DNA from: Methanobacteriota archaeon
GTDB lineage: Archaea > Hydrothermarchaeota > Hydrothermarchaeia > Hydrothermarchaeales > SZUA-236
Assembly: GCA_003695745.1 (NCBI GenBank)
Contig: RFHW01000079.1
Location: 1-18,916, forward strand
DNA: 18,916 bases
Direction of reading: 5' to 3'
The notes below the pieces were generated by a model. The model did not search any database and had not been told where the DNA came from. It saw only the letters and a list, made by a program, of their open reading frames with translations. Positions within the stretch are counted from its first letter, which is position 1; every line of letters begins with the position of its first letter. Shown here one piece after another: positions 1 through 5,823 of this stretch. Both the position numbers and the translations under genes were made by a program.

Positions 1-225
1 GATCTTGGCCACACCGTTGAGGAGCGGGACCTCACAAGGGGGTCTCTTCTAACGGCCGATGAGGTCTTCTTCACAGGCACGGCCGCCGAGATAACCCCGA
101 TCAGGGAGATCGATGGCGTGGAGATAGGGAAGCCCGGGCCCATAACCAGAGCTATTCAGGACAGGTTCTACAGGATCGTCGCCGGCGAAGAGCCCAGGTA
201 CGAGAAGTGGCTGGACTACATTTGA
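1..225 (+). CDS. ilvE: Branched-chain amino acid aminotransferase, C-terminal part
   Basis: The window opens inside this gene; 74 codons and a TGA stop are present. The enzyme family (fold-type IV PLP transaminases) transfers the amino group between glutamate and the 2-oxo acids of valine, leucine and isoleucine in the cytoplasm. The segment DEVFFTGTAAEITPIREIDG followed by a GKPGPITRAIQ-like stretch is the typical C-terminal signature of IlvE, in which the GTAAEI turn contacts the PLP phosphate. The PLP lysine lies upstream of the window. The last codons (EPRYEKWLDYI) are the source of the repeats found at 1159-1208, 1920-1945 and 2654-2679, so this 3' end seems to have been a target for repeated insertions. 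The identification is firm; the upstream context is not visible. Confidence 0.9.
   Translation, partial: DLGHTVEERDLTRGSLLTADEVFFTGTAAEITPIREIDGVEIGKPGPITRAIQDRFYRIVAGEEPRYEKWLDYI
176..225 (+). repeat. ilvE 3'-end repeat, copy R1 (in-gene copy)
   Basis: This is the last 50 bases of ilvE including the stop. It matches 1159-1208 at 46 of 50 positions; the four differences are one base in the middle and three just before the final TTTGA. Its core, GAAGTGGCTGGAC, recurs exactly in all four copies (R1 to R4), and each copy ends in TTTGA. Confidence 0.9.
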
Positions 226-237
226 GACACGGTCTAT

Positions 238-717
238 CTAATAAAACTTCGACATCTCAGAAAATAGCCTTCCTAAATTATCATTTTTTGATACTGTAAC
301 GAACTTACTTATTGGAACAGCACGATAATTTTGATTATTAGGATTCGTGTAACATTCGCCACACTCCAGGACTTTCGATGCTGGAATCCAATGCCAAGTG
401 TTATAGTGGTCACCTTCACTTGAAAACACATACCACACCTGAAGATTAAAATAATTTTGAAGGTTGCAATACTGTTTTGTTTCTTCCTCATCGATCTGGA
501 AGACATCATACTTTTTGGCAGGCTTCTTATACTCTACATCAACAATGATAAAACCTACATGAGGTACAAGGATCATAAAATCGGGGCGTTTTGTCATATA
601 TGTTCTCAGCGCTTGAGAAAAAGTGTCTATTGCTTGATGAATATAAAAATACGGTATATTATGTTTGTCCAACCATTCTTTGAATTCTGATTCAGCAAGA
701 TTTTCTTTTTCCTTCAT
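238..717 (-). CDS. PD-(D/E)XK-fold nuclease-like protein
   Basis: This is a protein of about 159 residues in AT-rich DNA unlike its neighbours. Near the start lies a helix with a conserved-type glutamate (E12, counting from the GTG three bases upstream). Then come RPDFMILV with D47 and, after a hydrophobic strand, VDVEYKK with E63 and K65. The order E...PD...ExK is the catalytic signature of the PD-(D/E)XK nuclease fold, in which the acidic residues bind the metal and the lysine helps position the attacking water. The C-terminal half (aromatic-rich, WYVFSSEGD and WHWIPASK) is not recognised. GTG at 720 and ATG at 717 are both possible starts. A TATA-like box at 741-754 sits about 25-35 bases upstream, so the mRNA is probably leaderless. 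It lies in the first module after ilvE and is likely horizontally acquired; a role in defence or DNA processing is only inference. Confidence 0.65.
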   Translation of the reverse strand: MKEKENLAESEFKEWLDKHNIPYFYIHQAIDTFSQALRTYMTKRPDFMILVPHVGFIIVDVEYKKPAKKYDVFQIDEEETKQYCNLQNYFNLQVWYVFSSEGDHYNTWHWIPASKVLECGECYTNPNNQNYRAVPISKFVTVSKNDNLGRLFSEMSKFY

Positions 718-740
718 CACTCTGATTAAGGGCGTTTAAG

Positions 741-754
741 ATATAAATATATAT
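741..754 (-). promoter_or_regulatory. TATA-box-like element of the nuclease-like gene
   Basis: An AT-only run reads ATATATATTTATAT on the minus strand. It lies about 25-35 bases before the start codon at 717/720, the normal archaeal TATA-to-start-site distance. Being nearly symmetric, it could also serve the plus-strand zinc-ribbon gene downstream, with a leader of some 60 bases. Confidence 0.5.
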
Positions 755-804
755 GATTGAAACGAAAAAATATTGGAGGATGTTTCAGTGCACGCTTGAA
801 TGAT

Positions 805-826
805 CCTCTAAAAAGTCTTTAGGAGG
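805..826 (+). promoter_or_regulatory. Possible hairpin covering the ribosome binding site
   Basis: CCTCTAAA (805-812) can pair with TTTAGGAGG (818-826) across a five-base loop, with one bulged base. The right arm contains the AGGAGG Shine-Dalgarno sequence of the following gene, so the folded RNA would hide it. Seen by eye only; no folding energy was computed. Confidence 0.35.
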
Positions 827-838
827 GCATTGAAGAAA

Positions 839-1147
839 ATGGCGCAGGCACCAGATCCATGGAGGAAAATGGGTGTAAAATCAAGTTCCCCCGGAAGAGG
901 ACTACGAACAAGTTTAGCAAGATTAGATCCTGCCTATAGAGAAGAAGACATACACAGGAAAGAATCGTTCCTTTCCGAACATGAAGCCGGGTTTGTTCAA
1001 CTGGATTTAGAGGAAGAAAAGCCCGTAGGCTCAATGGAGTCACAAAACGAGGAAGAGAAAACTAAGATTTGTAGGGTGTGTAAAAAAGAATTTGTTCCGG
1101 AAAGAGACTATTATCATACATGCCCTACTTGTTTTAAACGTTATTAA
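839..1147 (+). CDS. Small zinc-ribbon protein, function unknown
   Basis: This protein has about 102 residues. The first 80 are polar, charged and probably unstructured. The C-terminus holds two CxxC pairs, CRVC and CPTC, 15 residues apart, a spacing that fits a zinc ribbon. I do not recognise the family. A strong AGGAGG at 821-826 precedes the gene; ATG at 839 is 12 bases away (rather long), while the in-frame TTG at 830 is only 3 bases away (too short). I prefer the ATG, but the start is uncertain. The gene shares the AT-rich composition of the adjacent nuclease-like gene and lies in the same module, and its stop is 11 bases before the second ilvE-tail repeat. The zinc ribbon could bind nucleic acid or a protein partner; nothing here decides which. 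Confidence 0.6.
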   Translation: MAQAPDPWRKMGVKSSSPGRGLRTSLARLDPAYREEDIHRKESFLSEHEAGFVQLDLEEEKPVGSMESQNEEEKTKICRVCKKEFVPERDYYHTCPTCFKRY

Positions 1148-1158
1148 TCGCTGTGGGC

Positions 1159-1208
1159 TCGTCGCCGGAGAAGAGCCCAGGTACGAGAAGTGGCTGGACC
1201 AGGTTTGA
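1159..1208 (+). repeat. ilvE 3'-end repeat, copy R2
   Basis: A 50-base duplicate of the ilvE tail outside any gene. If read in the ilvE frame it would encode VAGEEPRYEKWLDQV and a stop, so it is a displaced gene end rather than random similarity. It closes the AT-rich nuclease/zinc-ribbon module and precedes the first vapBC promoter. Confidence 0.9.
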
Positions 1209-1218
1209 GCCCCTAAGC

Positions 1219-1237
1219 CGTATATACTTGTATTACA
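1219..1237 (+). promoter_or_regulatory. vapBC1 promoter and possible operator
   Basis: A TATA-like CGTATATACTTG (1219-1230) lies 11 bases after the repeat. The perfect small palindrome TGTATTACA follows at 1229-1237. Type II antitoxins usually repress their own operon by binding such inverted repeats near the transcription start, so this is a reasonable candidate operator. The expected transcription start is near 1250. Confidence 0.4.
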
Positions 1238-1275
1238 TATTTGTGTAGGACGTTAACATACAGGGTATTTATGCC

Positions 1276-1518
1276 ATGCCAGTTATCAGCCTGAGGATCG
1301 ATGAAAAGACCAAGAGGAAGATGAGCCGGCTCAAGCACATCAACTGGAGCCAGGTCATAAGAGAGGGGATACTGCAGAAGATCGAGGAGGAGGAAAAAAG
1401 AAGGATAGACAGAGCGCTGCTCTCCCAGGCAGTAAAGGAAAATGACAGGCTCAAGAGAAAGGTGCCCGGCTATGACAGCACCCTGGAGATAAGAAAGTGG
1501 AGAGAGGCAAGAAGATAG
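1276..1518 (+). CDS. vapB: VapB-type antitoxin
   Basis: This is an 80-residue, highly charged protein. Its N-terminal MPVISLRIDEKTKRKM fits a short DNA-binding beta strand, followed by two helices (NWSQVIREGILQKIEEEE). This is the ribbon-helix-helix pattern of archaeal VapB antitoxins. The C-terminal half (about residues 45-80) should be the flexible part that wraps and inhibits the toxin. The stop overlaps the next gene by 22 bases, the usual arrangement for translationally coupled toxin-antitoxin pairs. It probably binds its own promoter. ATG at 1276 is the only start that keeps the beta strand. The pairing with a PIN toxin makes the call fairly firm. Confidence 0.8.
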   Translation: MPVISLRIDEKTKRKMSRLKHINWSQVIREGILQKIEEEEKRRIDRALLSQAVKENDRLKRKVPGYDSTLEIRKWREARR

Positions 1519-1925
1519 TGGTCGATGCTTCTGTGGCTGCAAAATGGTTCCTCGAAGAGGAGCACAGCGACCATGCGGCCGCCCTCCGCACAGACTATGT
1601 TGACGGCACAGTTGACATCCTTGTGCCCGATATCTTCCCCTACGAGGTGTTGAACGCCCTGAAATACTCCGGCGATTTCGGGAGGATCGAGCTTGAGAAG
1701 GCCTGGGAGGTGCTGGAGAACTACCAGCTCCTGCACCTGCCCCTCCCGGGCCGGGAGGCGGTGGCAGCGGCCTTTGAATATGGTGTCACCATCTACGATG
1801 CCGCCTATTTGGCTGTTGCAAAAGAGGAGGACGCCACCCTATACACCGCCGATGAAAAGCTCCTTGAAAAGATAGGCGACGCAGCGCCTGTAAAACACAT
1901 ATCAGGATACAAAAAGAGGAAGTGA
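1497..1925 (+). CDS. vapC: VapC toxin, PIN-domain ribonuclease
   Basis: This 142-residue PIN-domain protein is of normal VapC length. The four acidic metal-binding positions of the family are visible: D10 in IVVDASV, E50 in PYEVLNAL, D101 in TIYDAAYLA and D119 in YTADEKL. VapC toxins cleave specific RNAs (tRNA or rRNA) when not held by VapB. The GTG start at 1497 keeps the first strand (KKIVVDAS); a later GTG at 1518 would cut it off. The last nine residues (HISGYKKRK) are identical to those of the other VapC in this window, although the rest differs. The stop codon falls inside the ilvE-tail repeat core. The toxin looks intact. Confidence 0.88.
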   Translation: MERGKKIVVDASVAAKWFLEEEHSDHAAALRTDYVDGTVDILVPDIFPYEVLNALKYSGDFGRIELEKAWEVLENYQLLHLPLPGREAVAAAFEYGVTIYDAAYLAVAKEEDATLYTADEKLLEKIGDAAPVKHISGYKKRK

Positions 1926-1945
1926 AGTGGCTGGACTACGTTTGA
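1898..1945 (+). repeat. Module-end repeat R3 (vapC tail plus ilvE tail)
   Basis: These 48 bases match 2632-2679 at 47 of 48 positions. The first part encodes the last residues of the toxin. The second part, from about 1920, is the ilvE tail (GAAGTGGCTGGACTACGTTTGA). The junction of toxin end and ilvE end is therefore itself duplicated. Confidence 0.9.
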
Positions 1946-1964
1946 GCTTTTGGTATGGAAAAAA

Positions 1965-1975
1965 CTTTATAATCC
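1965..1975 (+). promoter_or_regulatory. vapBC2 TATA-box-like element
   Basis: CTTTATAATCC lies about 30-40 bases upstream of the antitoxin ATG at 2006, implying a short leader. It sits just after repeat R3, so this module carries its own promoter. Confidence 0.45.
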
Positions 1976-2005
1976 TTCAGGTCAAGATTAACAGCGGCGC
2001 TGATC

Positions 2006-2236
2006 ATGAGCGAAATAGTGGTTGACCTTCCGGAAGACTTGAAGAAGGTGATGAGCAAGCATAAATCAGTCGATTGGTCAGGTATAGCAGAGGAGGCCAT
2101 AAGGAAGGCTGCCGCCGAGATAGAGTTATTAAATGCCATAGCATCTGAAAGCAAGTTGACCGAAGAGGATGCTCTCAAGCTGGGCAGAAAGGTAAAGAAG
2201 GGGATGTGGGATAGGGTATACAAAAAGCTGGTGTAG
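2006..2236 (+). CDS. vapB: VapB-type antitoxin, second pair
   Basis: A 76-residue protein with an N-terminal strand (SEIVVDLPEDLKKVM), a helix around DWSGIAEEAIRKAAAE and a charged C-terminal tail ending MWDRVYKKLV. The pattern is that of a ribbon-helix-helix or related VapB antitoxin. It shares little sequence with the first VapB, so this is not a recent duplicate of that gene. Its stop TAG is immediately followed by the ATG of the toxin, with no spacer, implying translational coupling. It is expected to neutralise the following PIN toxin and to repress the operon. The exact antitoxin subfamily cannot be settled from sequence alone. Confidence 0.78.
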   Translation: MSEIVVDLPEDLKKVMSKHKSVDWSGIAEEAIRKAAAEIELLNAIASESKLTEEDALKLGRKVKKGMWDRVYKKLV

Positions 2237-2659
2237 ATGGAGCTAGTGGTCGACACCAACATTGTTTTTTCGGCCATAGTCAAGGATTCCTATACACGAC
2301 TTCTGCTATGCAATCAAAATCTGGTATTATATGCTCCTGAAGCATTGATTTCTGAGCTGAACGAACACGAGAAGGAGATTAGAGAAAAATCAGGGTTACG
2401 TGGGGAAGAATGGGGAGAACTCATGGGACTATTATTGTCAAAGATAAGGCTAGTGTCAAGAAAAGACATCGCGCGGTATCTTAAAAAAGCACTTGAATTT
2501 TCTCCAGACAAGGAGGACGCCCCATTTTTTGCCGCCTGCCTTGCAAGGGATGTCCCTTTGTGGTCCAACGACAAGAAGCTAAAAGAGCAGGCTGCTGTCA
2601 AGGTTCTCACCACAGAAGAGCTGGTACGGCGCATATCAGGATACAAAAAGAGGAAGTGA
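2237..2659 (+). CDS. vapC: VapC-like toxin, PIN-domain ribonuclease, second pair
   Basis: This 140-residue PIN protein shows D6 in ELVVDTNIVFSAI, an acidic residue in the ISELNEH helix, KEDAPFFAACLA, and SNDKKLKEQ near the end. This is the acidic quartet and layout of the PIN subfamily whose first strand reads VDTNI, different from the VDASV type of the first toxin. Expected activity is metal-dependent RNA cleavage. It starts directly at the antitoxin stop. Its codon use is somewhat AT-richer than that of the first toxin. It ends with the same nine residues (HISGYKKRK) as the first toxin, which points to recombination or to a shared cassette end rather than common descent of the whole gene. 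Confidence 0.85.
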   Translation: MELVVDTNIVFSAIVKDSYTRLLLCNQNLVLYAPEALISELNEHEKEIREKSGLRGEEWGELMGLLLSKIRLVSRKDIARYLKKALEFSPDKEDAPFFAACLARDVPLWSNDKKLKEQAAVKVLTTEELVRRISGYKKRK

Positions 2660-2679
2660 AGTGGCTGGACTACATTTGA
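2632..2679 (+). repeat. Module-end repeat R4 (vapC tail plus ilvE tail)
   Basis: Second copy of the 48-base toxin-end/ilvE-end junction, with a single mismatch to 1898-1945. From 2660 the 20 bases up to the stop (AGTGGCTGGACTACATTTGA) match the true ilvE end exactly. The 5' end of the following membrane protein ORF reads through it in another frame. Confidence 0.9.
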
Positions 2680-3113
2680 ATCACGTAAACGGGAAGGCAA
2701 TAGCCCTTGGTGTGGTCGTTGCCTTCGTCCTTTCAAACGGGTTCACGCTGTTAATTACATTCTCGATCAATATCGCCCTTATTTTAGCAGGAACGCCGTA
2801 CGACCAAATTACCATCGCACAGATCTCAAGGGTGATAATGAGCTCGGACATCCTCATCGGTTTATTGATCTTCTTTGAACAGTTTTCTATTATGCTGGGA
2901 GGCTTTTTCTCTGCTTGGACCGCCAGGAAATCCGAACTGAAACATGGAGTGTTGGTGGGCATAATGGTTGAATTATTGGGGATTTCAATTGTCATCATAA
3001 GGGACCTATTCCCGCTTCATGAGCTCAGTCTTTTCTTTTTCCTCTTAACAATACCATCAGCATTCGTTGGAGCATATCTTGGAAGACAGTATAACACAGC
3101 TAAACAGGCTTAA
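2661..3113 (+). CDS. Small integral membrane protein, function unknown
   Basis: A protein of about 150 residues with four predicted membrane segments (roughly residues 12-45, 63-85, 93-112 and 122-145). A GGFFSAWTARKSELKHG loop lies between the second and third, with positive charges suggesting it faces the cytoplasm. The glycine-containing helix before a basic loop resembles several small unknown-function membrane families, but I cannot assign one. The start is doubtful. GTG at 2661 lies inside the ilvE-tail repeat, with GAGGAAG upstream; TTG at 2676 and GTG at 2712 are alternatives. If 2661 is used, the repeat supplies the first six codons, so the original 5' end may have been replaced. No promoter of its own is visible; it may be read through from vapBC2. 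Confidence 0.65.
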   Translation: MAGLHLNHVNGKAIALGVVVAFVLSNGFTLLITFSINIALILAGTPYDQITIAQISRVIMSSDILIGLLIFFEQFSIMLGGFFSAWTARKSELKHGVLVGIMVELLGISIVIIRDLFPLHELSLFFFLLTIPSAFVGAYLGRQYNTAKQA

Positions 3114-4353: not shown

Positions 4354-4584
4354 TCAGAACTCTGCCCCGATTATGGTCTTCGTTGCAGTGACCCCTTTCA
4401 CCTCCCTGATGGTGTCCACGGTGTCGTTGATCGCCTTGAGCCCTTCCGTCTCGATTATGGCGATGAAATCATACTCGCCGAATAGATGGAGAAGCTCTCT
4501 CACACCGTCTATGCGGGATATCTCCTTTCTAACGGCATTTTCCTTTCCAAGCTCAACATTTATCATGCAAACGCCAACAGCCAT
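4354..4584 (-). CDS. Standalone RAM domain (Lrp/AsnC ligand-binding type)
   Basis: A 76-residue protein consisting only of the alpha/beta ligand-binding and oligomerisation domain of Lrp/AsnC regulators. GVCMINVELGKE, the GVRELLHLFGEYDFIAIIE core and the GVTATKTIIGAEF end are all typical; there is no DNA-binding helix-turn-helix. Such single-domain proteins form octamers or larger assemblies and bind amino acids; some partner with full-length Lrp proteins. A good GGAGGAG ribosome binding site precedes the ATG. The gene begins 18 bases after thrC ends on the same strand. A role in sensing threonine or a related amino acid for this operon is a sensible inference but not shown. Confidence 0.85.
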   Translation of the reverse strand: MAVGVCMINVELGKENAVRKEISRIDGVRELLHLFGEYDFIAIIETEGLKAINDTVDTIREVKGVTATKTIIGAEF

Positions 4585-4602
4585 CTATATCTCCTCCTCT
4601 TT

Positions 4603-5823
4603 CTATAGCACTTGGGCCACCACCTTCTTTAACCTTTCCATGTCTGCAGGGCAGGTGATGGGCGCCTCAGAGCTTTTTATGATGATCTCAGGGTCCTTCA
4701 ATGCGTGGCCTGTTGCCACGCAGACTATCCGCTCGTCACTGTCGATCTCCCCTGATTCAAGGAGCTTCTTTAAGCCTGCAATGGTCGATGCCGAAGCAGG
4801 CTCCACCCCTATGCCTTCCCTGCGGGCAAGCATCTTCTGGGCATGGAGGATCTCCTCGTCGCTCACAGCCTCCATGAGGCCGCCAGACTCCCTGACAGCC
4901 CGAAGGGTCTTCGGCGCCGAGACAGGGGCGCCGATCCGAATGGCCGTTGCCACGGTCTCAGGGTTCTCGACGGGCACGACCTCGTCAAGGCCTTCCCTGT
5001 AGGCGTGGACCACCGGCGCCGCACCCTCAGCCTGGATGCCTGTTATCCGGGGTAGCCTGTCGATGAACCCATATTCATAGAACTCCTTTAAGCCCTTCCA
5101 GATGGCGGAGCTGTTGCCGCAGTTGCCCACAGGGACTATGATGCGGTCCGGCACCTCCCACTCCAGCTGGTCCACGATCTCGAATCCAAGGGATTTCTGG
5201 CCCTCCAGCCTCCAGGGGTTTATGGAGTTCAACAGGTAGATGTTCATCTCGTCGCAGACCCTGCGCACAAGCTCCAGCGCCTCATCGAAGTTGCCCTCGA
5301 TTGCTATGACCCTGGCGCCGTGGAGGATCGCCTGGGCCAGCTTTCCCATCGCCGTCTTTCCGGTGGGCAGAAGCACGATGCAGCTCAAACGGGCGACGGC
5401 TGCAAAGGAGGCCAGCGACGCCGAGGTGTTGCCTGTGGAGGCGCATGCCACTGCCCTGGCGCCGAGCTCCAGCGCCTTGGTGACGCCAACTGTCATACCT
5501 CGGTCTTTGAATGAGCCGGAGGGGTTTGCGCCCTCGTTCTTCACATAAAGCTCTTTTACGCCGAACTCTTCTCTTAGGTTGTCAACACGGTGAAGGGGCG
5601 TCCCTCCCTCTGTTAGCGTGATTATCCGGGCCTTTTCGCTGACTGGCATGAACTCCCGGTACTTCCAGACTCCCATCCACCGTGGGTCCATCTCCTCCTT
5701 TGTCACGTGGATCTTGTCAAGCTCGAGCACCACCTCGAGGAGGCCGCCGCATCTGGGGCAGGTGTATATCCTTTCTTCAGGGGGGTATGTGGCGTTGCAT
5801 TTGATGCACTGTAGATGGAACAT
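4603..5823 (-). CDS. thrC: Threonine synthase
   Basis: A 406-residue PLP enzyme converting O-phosphohomoserine to threonine, the last step of threonine biosynthesis. The N-terminus has a zinc ribbon (C6/C9 and C22/C25), as in many archaeal threonine synthases. NPSGSFKDRGM carries the PLP lysine K106. ACASTGNTSASLASFAAVA is the phosphate-loop region, VPVGNCGNSSAIWKG the glycine-rich PLP site, and VEPASASTIAGL the C-terminal active-site segment. Length and motifs are complete. The ATG is preceded by GAGG only two bases away, and a TATA-like element lies at 5854-5862, so initiation may be nearly leaderless. It heads a run with the RAM-domain protein and the secreted protein, and is divergent from the ArsR operon. 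Confidence 0.95.
   Translation of the reverse strand: MFHLQCIKCNATYPPEERIYTCPRCGGLLEVVLELDKIHVTKEEMDPRWMGVWKYREFMPVSEKARIITLTEGGTPLHRVDNLREEFGVKELYVKNEGANPSGSFKDRGMTVGVTKALELGARAVACASTGNTSASLASFAAVARLSCIVLLPTGKTAMGKLAQAILHGARVIAIEGNFDEALELVRRVCDEMNIYLLNSINPWRLEGQKSLGFEIVDQLEWEVPDRIIVPVGNCGNSSAIWKGLKEFYEYGFIDRLPRITGIQAEGAAPVVHAYREGLDEVVPVENPETVATAIRIGAPVSAPKTLRAVRESGGLMEAVSDEEILHAQKMLARREGIGVEPASASTIAGLKKLLESGEIDSDERIVCVATGHALKDPEIIIKSSEAPITCPADMERLKKVVAQVL

Follow-up and report, generated by a model that had tools for sequence, protein, structure and literature searches.

The 18,916-nt contig RFHW01000079.1 (GenBank assembly GCA_003695745.1, a Methanobacteriota archaeon of the order Hydrothermarchaeales; the whole stretch is called the window below) begins in the 3′ end of ilvE, which is followed by three small gene modules, two of them toxin–antitoxin (TA) pairs with PIN-domain toxins. 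We observed that each module ends in a copy of the ilvE tail, and that some other PIN genes of the phylum also lie between the end of a host gene and an orphan copy of that end. We propose that such modules, mostly TA pairs, insert just after a stop codon while the gene tail is duplicated, that they can stack there, and that they may be exchanged through the tails. We consider this account about as probable as not being correct.

Four ilvE tails bound three modules

The window is contig C99 of a draft metagenome-assembled genome (MAG; G000; 1.28 Mb assembly, 89.7% complete). By ilvE, the closest relatives that have a name are Candidatus Pyrohabitans and Hydrothermarchaeota MAGs. A sequence-only reading of the window had claimed a four-fold repeat of the ilvE tail. 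We found the tail pattern again at 204-225, 1187-1208, 1924-1945 and 2658-2679. It gave 0 matches in 200 shuffles of the sequence, which excludes a chance origin of the four tails. The 46/50 agreement claimed for the first two copies also held (176-226 versus 1159-1209). Tail repeats far from ilvE would have spoken against that reading; no fifth copy of the pattern was present in the assembly at ≤2 mismatches. A looser pattern gave one extra site with 2 mismatches in the genome, on contig C122, and such sites are known from other genomes too. The features are as follows.

1..225, + strand: ilvE 3′ end, last 74 codons (Aminotran_4, 27.4 bits, below the cut-off of 28.5)
176..226, + strand: tail copy 1, the functional ilvE end
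238..720, − strand: module 1, nuclease-like protein, 160 aa, predicted Hjc-like fold (structure model and Foldseek)
830..1147, + strand: module 1, 105-aa protein with CxxC pairs at the C-terminus, a possible zinc ribbon by eye
1159..1209, + strand: tail copy 2, orphan (46/50 bases as in copy 1)
1276..1518, + strand: module 2, VapB-type antitoxin (NF050799, E 4e-10, 40 bits, below the cut-off of 60)
1497..1925, + strand: module 2, VapC toxin with PIN domain (PF01850, above cut-off)
1898..1946, + strand: tail copy 3, 23 nt of ilvE tail (1924-1946) joined to the preceding vapC 3′ end (1898-1923)
2006..2236, + strand: module 3, putative antitoxin by position (open reading frame (ORF) directly 5′ of the PIN_2 gene)
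2237..2659, + strand: module 3, PIN_2 toxin (PF10130, above cut-off)
2632..2679, + strand: tail copy 4 (47/48 as in copy 3)
2661..3113, + strand: low-GC membrane-protein ORF adjoining the last tail, with a GTG start inside tail copy 4

The agreement of copies 3 and 4 over 48 nt (1898-1945 versus 2632-2679) had been overlooked earlier. About 25 of the shared 48 nt belong to the first vapC, at its 3′ end, and not to ilvE, so module 3 carries a copied piece of the neighbouring module. The PIN_2 toxin and the module-2 vapC have the same last codons (ISGYKKRK). Close to the C-terminus, a HISxY-type motif was present in 103 of the 119 VapC1 relatives listed versus 3 of the 56 PIN_2 relatives listed, and the closest relatives of the PIN_2 toxin have other C-terminal ends. 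Since the HISxY-type ending is native to the VapC1 family, the second toxin appears to end in codons from its neighbour in place of its own. Duplication, at insertion, of whatever stands at the target would produce such an end naturally.

An empty site was found in G001, a relative from the same family whose ilvE end is 82% identical to that of the window. Its ilvE has a single tail and none of the window module genes beside it. An unrelated 111-aa ORF follows and then AsnC-like and thrC genes, as downstream in the window; in the flanks examined of other order members, ilvE lacked these two neighbours. With one tail and the same downstream neighbours in G001, the modules were most likely gained at ilvE. 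This one clean empty site, together with the lack of a further tail in the genome, supports the stepwise gain proposed in the sequence-only reading. The remainder of the window ilvE lies on contig C89 of G000, with an exact 99-nt overlap (window 1-99 = C89 1-99). Such an overlap inside ilvE marks a branch of the assembly graph, so strain variants may exist just upstream of the array.

Window positions 2680-3113 and positions 1664-1999 of locus L019 hold different small ORFs behind ilvE, both reading as membrane proteins. As this ORF differs between the two family members, the spot appears to be variable beyond the three modules.

Gene-tail repeats around PIN genes in the phylum

Direct repeats noticed around PIN loci of relatives were the start of a survey. 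The sample comprised 111 PIN genes with flanks, taken among the matches listed, from 18 of the 23 genomes searched in the same phylum, in which there are further matches. Flanking direct repeats were present at 35 of the 111 PIN genes at a loose setting. Close flanking repeats were present at 21 of 111, versus 1 of 165 and 1 of 93 control ORFs. Under a strict gene-tail rule, one copy had to close a gene of at least 130 aa at its 3′ end, and its partner had to be an orphan. Twelve of the 111 PIN genes passed, versus 0 of 293 and 0 of 163 control genes (0/456 in total; P = 1.9e-9, Fisher's exact test), a contrast lowered by the presence of at least two PIN genes (G000:C41, G013:C2) in the control stretches L148-L187.

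Three of the 12 positives (L307, L322, L323) had been viewed before the survey. Among the 96 PIN genes in regions not previously viewed, 9 passed the strict rule (P = 1.1e-7 versus 0/456); 16 had close repeats, 11 of which read as gene ends. A more sensitive test at score 20 was positive for 12 of 91 PIN genes versus 1 of 273 controls. In the unseen set it was positive for 9 of 80 (P = 9e-6), one of the nine (L257) being a dispersed repeat. In the 1.36 Mb examined, one gene-tail pair encloses no listed PIN gene, and that pair joins two listed PIN copies. On the loci from the search for ilvE relatives, mostly of other phyla, 2 of 248 genes passed the strict rule. In G000 itself, four of the seven surveyed PIN genes lie between tails (ilvE twice, an OMPdecase-family gene, truD); neither PIN gene at ilvE counts as one of the 12 strict positives.

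Several repeats were read as other than gene ends. Antitoxin paralogues account for L246 and for one pair at L265, paralogous genes for L256, and dispersed palindromic repeats of G021 for L257 and L304; L274 lies in a promoter region, and L334 is a palindrome. L305, L321 and L339 are gene ends by eye that did not pass the script rule. L244, L264, L281 and others of the 35 loose matches were left unclassified. The L286 tail belongs to a 263-aa gene and not to the neighbour assigned by the script, and the L323 host is uncertain. In G021 (L203, L257, L304), dispersed palindromic repeats with CTCACAGCTGTGAG surround several PIN loci, possibly a different insertion or repeat system.

The tailed host genes by Pfam were TruD (twice), OMPdecase/HUMPS, IGPS (trpC), CDP-OH_P_transf, GXGXG, PEP synthase, GCHY-1 (folE2), DsrE and TopoVI-A. 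We take the hosts at L321, L339 and L303 to be ahcY-like, cdhE-like and methyltransferase-like, respectively. A second stack was observed on G008:C37, where two modules are bracketed by three copies of the end of the methyltransferase-like gene; the second of these modules looks PIN-like by eye. Repeat lengths at gene ends ranged from 24 to 157 nt; the longest runs into a contig end and is thus at least 157 nt. At 12 of 17 junctions the repeat ends ≤8 nt from the stop codon (offsets read by hand), and at the PEP-synthase site (L294) it starts 7 nt behind the stop. No common motif was visible by eye at the module ends. One candidate target motif, CGTTTGAGCC shared upstream of vapB in G008, was rejected as a coincidence: it is apparent coding sequence on the opposite strand.

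A synonymous lean among tail-copy differences

We compared the codons of paired tail copies at 13 sites, using ungapped matches. There were 21 synonymous and 8 non-synonymous differences, or 28 and 8 when three sites were read a few codons further. The predicted synonymous share is 23% under neutral drift and 38% for a constrained host with a drifting spare copy. For the whole set, both were rejected (P = 3e-8 and P = 1.7e-4, respectively). TopoVI-A alone contributed 12 synonymous to 3 non-synonymous differences; without it the count was 9 to 5 (P = 0.001 versus neutral, P = 0.041 versus constrained host). The lean thus reads as strong for TopoVI-A and modest for the other sites. At DsrE, the ungapped match is followed by further third-position differences (5 to 0 when this extension is counted). 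The count omits L270 (CDP-alcohol), L294 (PEP synthase) and L323, where the differences fall after the stop codon or the reading frame is uncertain.

Other tail pairs were identical: truD of G008 (29/29), L286 (32/32) and L303 (34/34). With regard to the origin of the two copies, then, some pairs are identical and others differ mainly at synonymous sites. The synonymous lean suggests either that an exchange step has to be added or that the module brought a foreign tail. The OMPdecase-family gene carries related vapBC modules (70% DNA identity) in both G000 and G008. In G000, the spare tail matches its own gene at 52/53 and is about 74% like the G008 tail; in G008, the spare tail is apparently decayed (by eye). 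A spare tail like its own gene fits duplication at insertion and later exchange between related strains.

Search for a recombinase

We searched G000 for three recombinase families; transposases were not searched. The tyrosine integrase profile PF00589 had no match in this 89.7% complete genome, and the same search was positive in 14 of 14 control genomes. Cas1 was not found in the genome either. The only hit was a large serine recombinase beside a tRNA-Leu gene on another contig. No hairpin in the four ilvE tails rose above shuffles (folding z-scores −0.74 to 0.79). Together with the change of target gene, the negative searches for a tyrosine integrase and Cas1 in this 90% complete genome make a single integrase acting on a single site unlikely.

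The serine recombinase (L211, G000:C115, ~4371-5273; 300 aa, PF00239 and PF07508) lies ~230 nt from tRNA-Leu(CAG), and the region is possibly an integrated element; no direct repeat of ≥14 nt was found near it in a 12 kb stretch. A 45-nt repeat in L164 (G000:C65, 7996-8040 and 8310-8354) covers the 3′ part of a tRNA-Lys and that of a second tRNA-like sequence that ARAGORN did not call.

The earlier suggestion of a cassette system attaching at the ilvE tail was not supported in that form. The footprint also occurs at other gene ends, the repeat length varies from 24 to ≥157 nt, the tails fold no better than shuffled sequence, and the genome searches found neither a tyrosine integrase nor Cas1. 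As a general attachment site the ilvE tail was also rejected: no second 24-nt tail (≤6 mismatches) was present behind ilvE in G001, in other order members or in 80 loci; three rows (L056, L128, L141) were partial, and those for L140 and the window were uninformative. The sole exception was L068, from a bacterium, where a perfect copy 87 nt on is a local repeat.

Contents of the modules

In modules 2 and 3 a PIN toxin is preceded by a small antitoxin gene, as in VapBC-type type II TA systems, although the putative antitoxin of module 3 had no family match in profile searches. Inspection by eye suggested putative promoters with TATA-like sequences near 1221-1226 and 1965-1975. The module-1 nuclease has 121 related proteins at E ≤ 0.001, with no Pfam domain among the matches listed. 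Its structure model (predicted local distance difference test score 89.6) resembles the fold of the archaeal Holliday-junction resolvase (Hjc) type, an archaeal Hjc being the best Foldseek match (E 1.3e-5, template modelling score about 0.5). The 105-aa protein had no Pfam match, and family matches were weak and sub-threshold. Of the contents named earlier, the nuclease-like protein and the two TA pairs were confirmed, while the zinc ribbon came down to CxxC pairs with weak matches.

G+C content was 37, 52 and 46% for the bodies of modules 1, 2 and 3. It was 57-59% for ilvE, a 393-aa gene, thrC and the rest of the window, 50% for the AsnC-like gene and 44% for the membrane ORF. In IMG/VR, no relatives of the module-1 nuclease or the PIN_2 toxin were confirmed and no ilvE tail pattern was found; a search of a plasmid collection gave no match.

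How the modules may have entered

In the account that we propose, each module would enter directly 3′ of a stop codon, with duplication of the tail of the upstream gene. The functional gene would keep a complete end, and the spare tail would close the far side of the module. The target duplication would be long and variable (24 to ≥157 nt), with no recombinase in the module. A second insertion at a spare tail would duplicate the local sequence there, which would explain why module 3 ends in the 3′ end of the module-2 vapC. Once bracketed by tails, modules could pass from one related genome to another through recombination at these tails, which would account for pairs whose differences resemble those of two functional alleles. 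We infer the direction of events, the duplication at insertion and the exchange step.

Several observations weigh against this account. The strict test was failed by 99 of the 111 PIN genes, and in the unseen set five of the 16 close repeats lie elsewhere than at a gene end. All loci come from draft genomes of one phylum. Module 1 has no PIN toxin. Nine TA loci of E. coli K-12, none of them VapBC, showed no gene-tail repeats, and the repeats near dinJ-yafQ read as repetitive extragenic palindromic elements only; the footprint is thus not universal, or it has been erased there. The synonymous lean is not predicted by plain target duplication and later drift, and it rests largely on TopoVI-A. 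Copies 1 and 2 of the ilvE tail differ at one synonymous and two non-synonymous codons. Finally, truD was hit in G000 and G008, from two families, by PIN modules without BLAST similarity to each other, and the OMPdecase-family gene by related modules. This reuse may point to preferred sites and hence to a site-specific enzyme.

A bolder form of the account would make the TA modules mobile units that enter behind stops, stack, and leave and re-enter as circles through the tails, with no dedicated integrase and any gene end usable. We regard this form as rather doubtful.

We consider it unlikely, though worth keeping in view, that the arrays arose by site-specific accretion of tiny cis-mobilizable elements, with the gene tail as attachment site and an integrase acting in trans, in the style of streptococcal fda, rpsI and rpmG. 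What keeps this explanation alive is above all that truD was hit more than once, the strongest argument for a site-specific enzyme. The closeness of the repeats to the stop at 12 of 17 junctions and the stacks at one site also agree with it, and synonymous differences are expected if an element carries a working gene end. The available parts of the sources describe stacks and cis-mobilizable elements (CIMEs) in Streptococcus salivarius (PMC7563491) and thaumarchaeal elements in protein-gene 3′ ends (PMC6563490). However, neither a PF00589 integrase nor Cas1 was found, the lone serine recombinase lies elsewhere beside tRNA-Leu, and the many target genes and repeat lengths would demand many integrases.

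One-step homologous capture has a similarly small chance of being right. Here a circle or fragment from a related strain, with a module beside its own tail of that gene, would join the recipient tail by a single crossover; nothing would be duplicated, and the second tail would be that of the donor. It would account for tail copies that resemble two functional alleles, clearest at TopoVI-A and DsrE, and for homologous vapBC modules at the end of the same OMPdecase-family gene in two families. It nevertheless still needs a first insertion behind the gene, and it leaves unexplained the ~25 nt of the neighbouring vapC in module 3. The identical tail pairs also speak against it, as does the spare tail of the G000 OMPdecase-family site, which is nearly that of its own gene and unlike the G008 tail.

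Under gene conversion or tandem duplication with replacement, a single inserted module would have been duplicated along with its tail, and another toxin pair would then have taken the place of the copied body; the remaining loci would be unrelated coincidences. The ~25 nt of vapC common to copies 3 and 4 are the remnant expected of homologous replacement, but the same anatomy at other genes in other genomes, versus 0/456 controls, makes this very improbable. Chance or an assembly artefact, for which one could cite draft MAGs and a contig break 99 nt into the window, is the least credible explanation of all, given the 0/200 shuffles, ilvE repeats shorter than the 99-nt assembly overlap and a footprint in several genomes.

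Insertion with tail duplication may show how selfish TA modules enter chromosomes. The footprint provides insertion boundaries and a means to recognise insertions in other genomes, and it makes the mechanism of TA entry testable in genome surveys and culturable archaea.

Comparison with known systems

The primary papers on the long target duplication of restriction–modification systems are reportedly Nobusato 2000 and Furuta 2010. The literature searched, which left most subscription papers uncovered, including two primary papers on long target duplication, yielded no account of duplicated gene tails flanking TA modules.

In the streptococcal accretion of integrative and conjugative elements, integrative and mobilizable elements and CIMEs (fda, rpsI, rpmG), tandem elements stand at the 3′ end of a protein gene, some without an integrase. 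S. salivarius carries stacks of two or three elements, with cargo CIMEs of 1.2-13 kb. The arrays described here likewise use gene 3′ ends, with copies between the elements. As far as the available text of the source goes, CIMEs descend from elements that bear an integrase and occupy few fixed genes (PMC7563491), whereas our modules measure 0.7-2.1 kb and stand at many genes with no integrase seen: G000 has no PF00589 match, and its serine recombinase lies beside tRNA-Leu. Among thaumarchaeal elements, 14 of 68 sit in the 3′ ends of protein genes, according to the portion seen of that study (PMC6563490).

Archaeal integrons likewise line up small gene modules that are each closed by a repeat, in what is available of their description (PMC9668308). 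Unlike these, the tails studied here are gene ends with no significant hairpin or attC-like folding, and no IntI (PF00589) match was found in the genome. Casposons in ef-2, as partly described in PMC6563490, resemble the arrays in targeting the 3′ region of an archaeal protein gene, in tandem insertion and in target duplication. They differ in that no Cas1 casposase is found in our genome and the repeat length is variable.

The best precedent, by analogy, appears to be the long target duplication of restriction–modification systems. These insert with long, variable target duplications (order of 100 bp) and no known mobile element, to judge from the accessible parts of the literature (PMC3874152, PMC3031569, PMC1643837). 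Common to both are addiction-type cargo, insertion unlinked to a known mobile element, and long direct repeats of tens of bp or more and of variable length (24-157 nt here). In contrast to the restriction–modification cases described in those parts, the cargo here consists of archaeal TA modules, housekeeping genes are mostly hit at their 3′ ends, the modules stack, and some tail pairs are allele-like. The footprint would thus link TA modules to the long target duplications known for restriction–modification systems.

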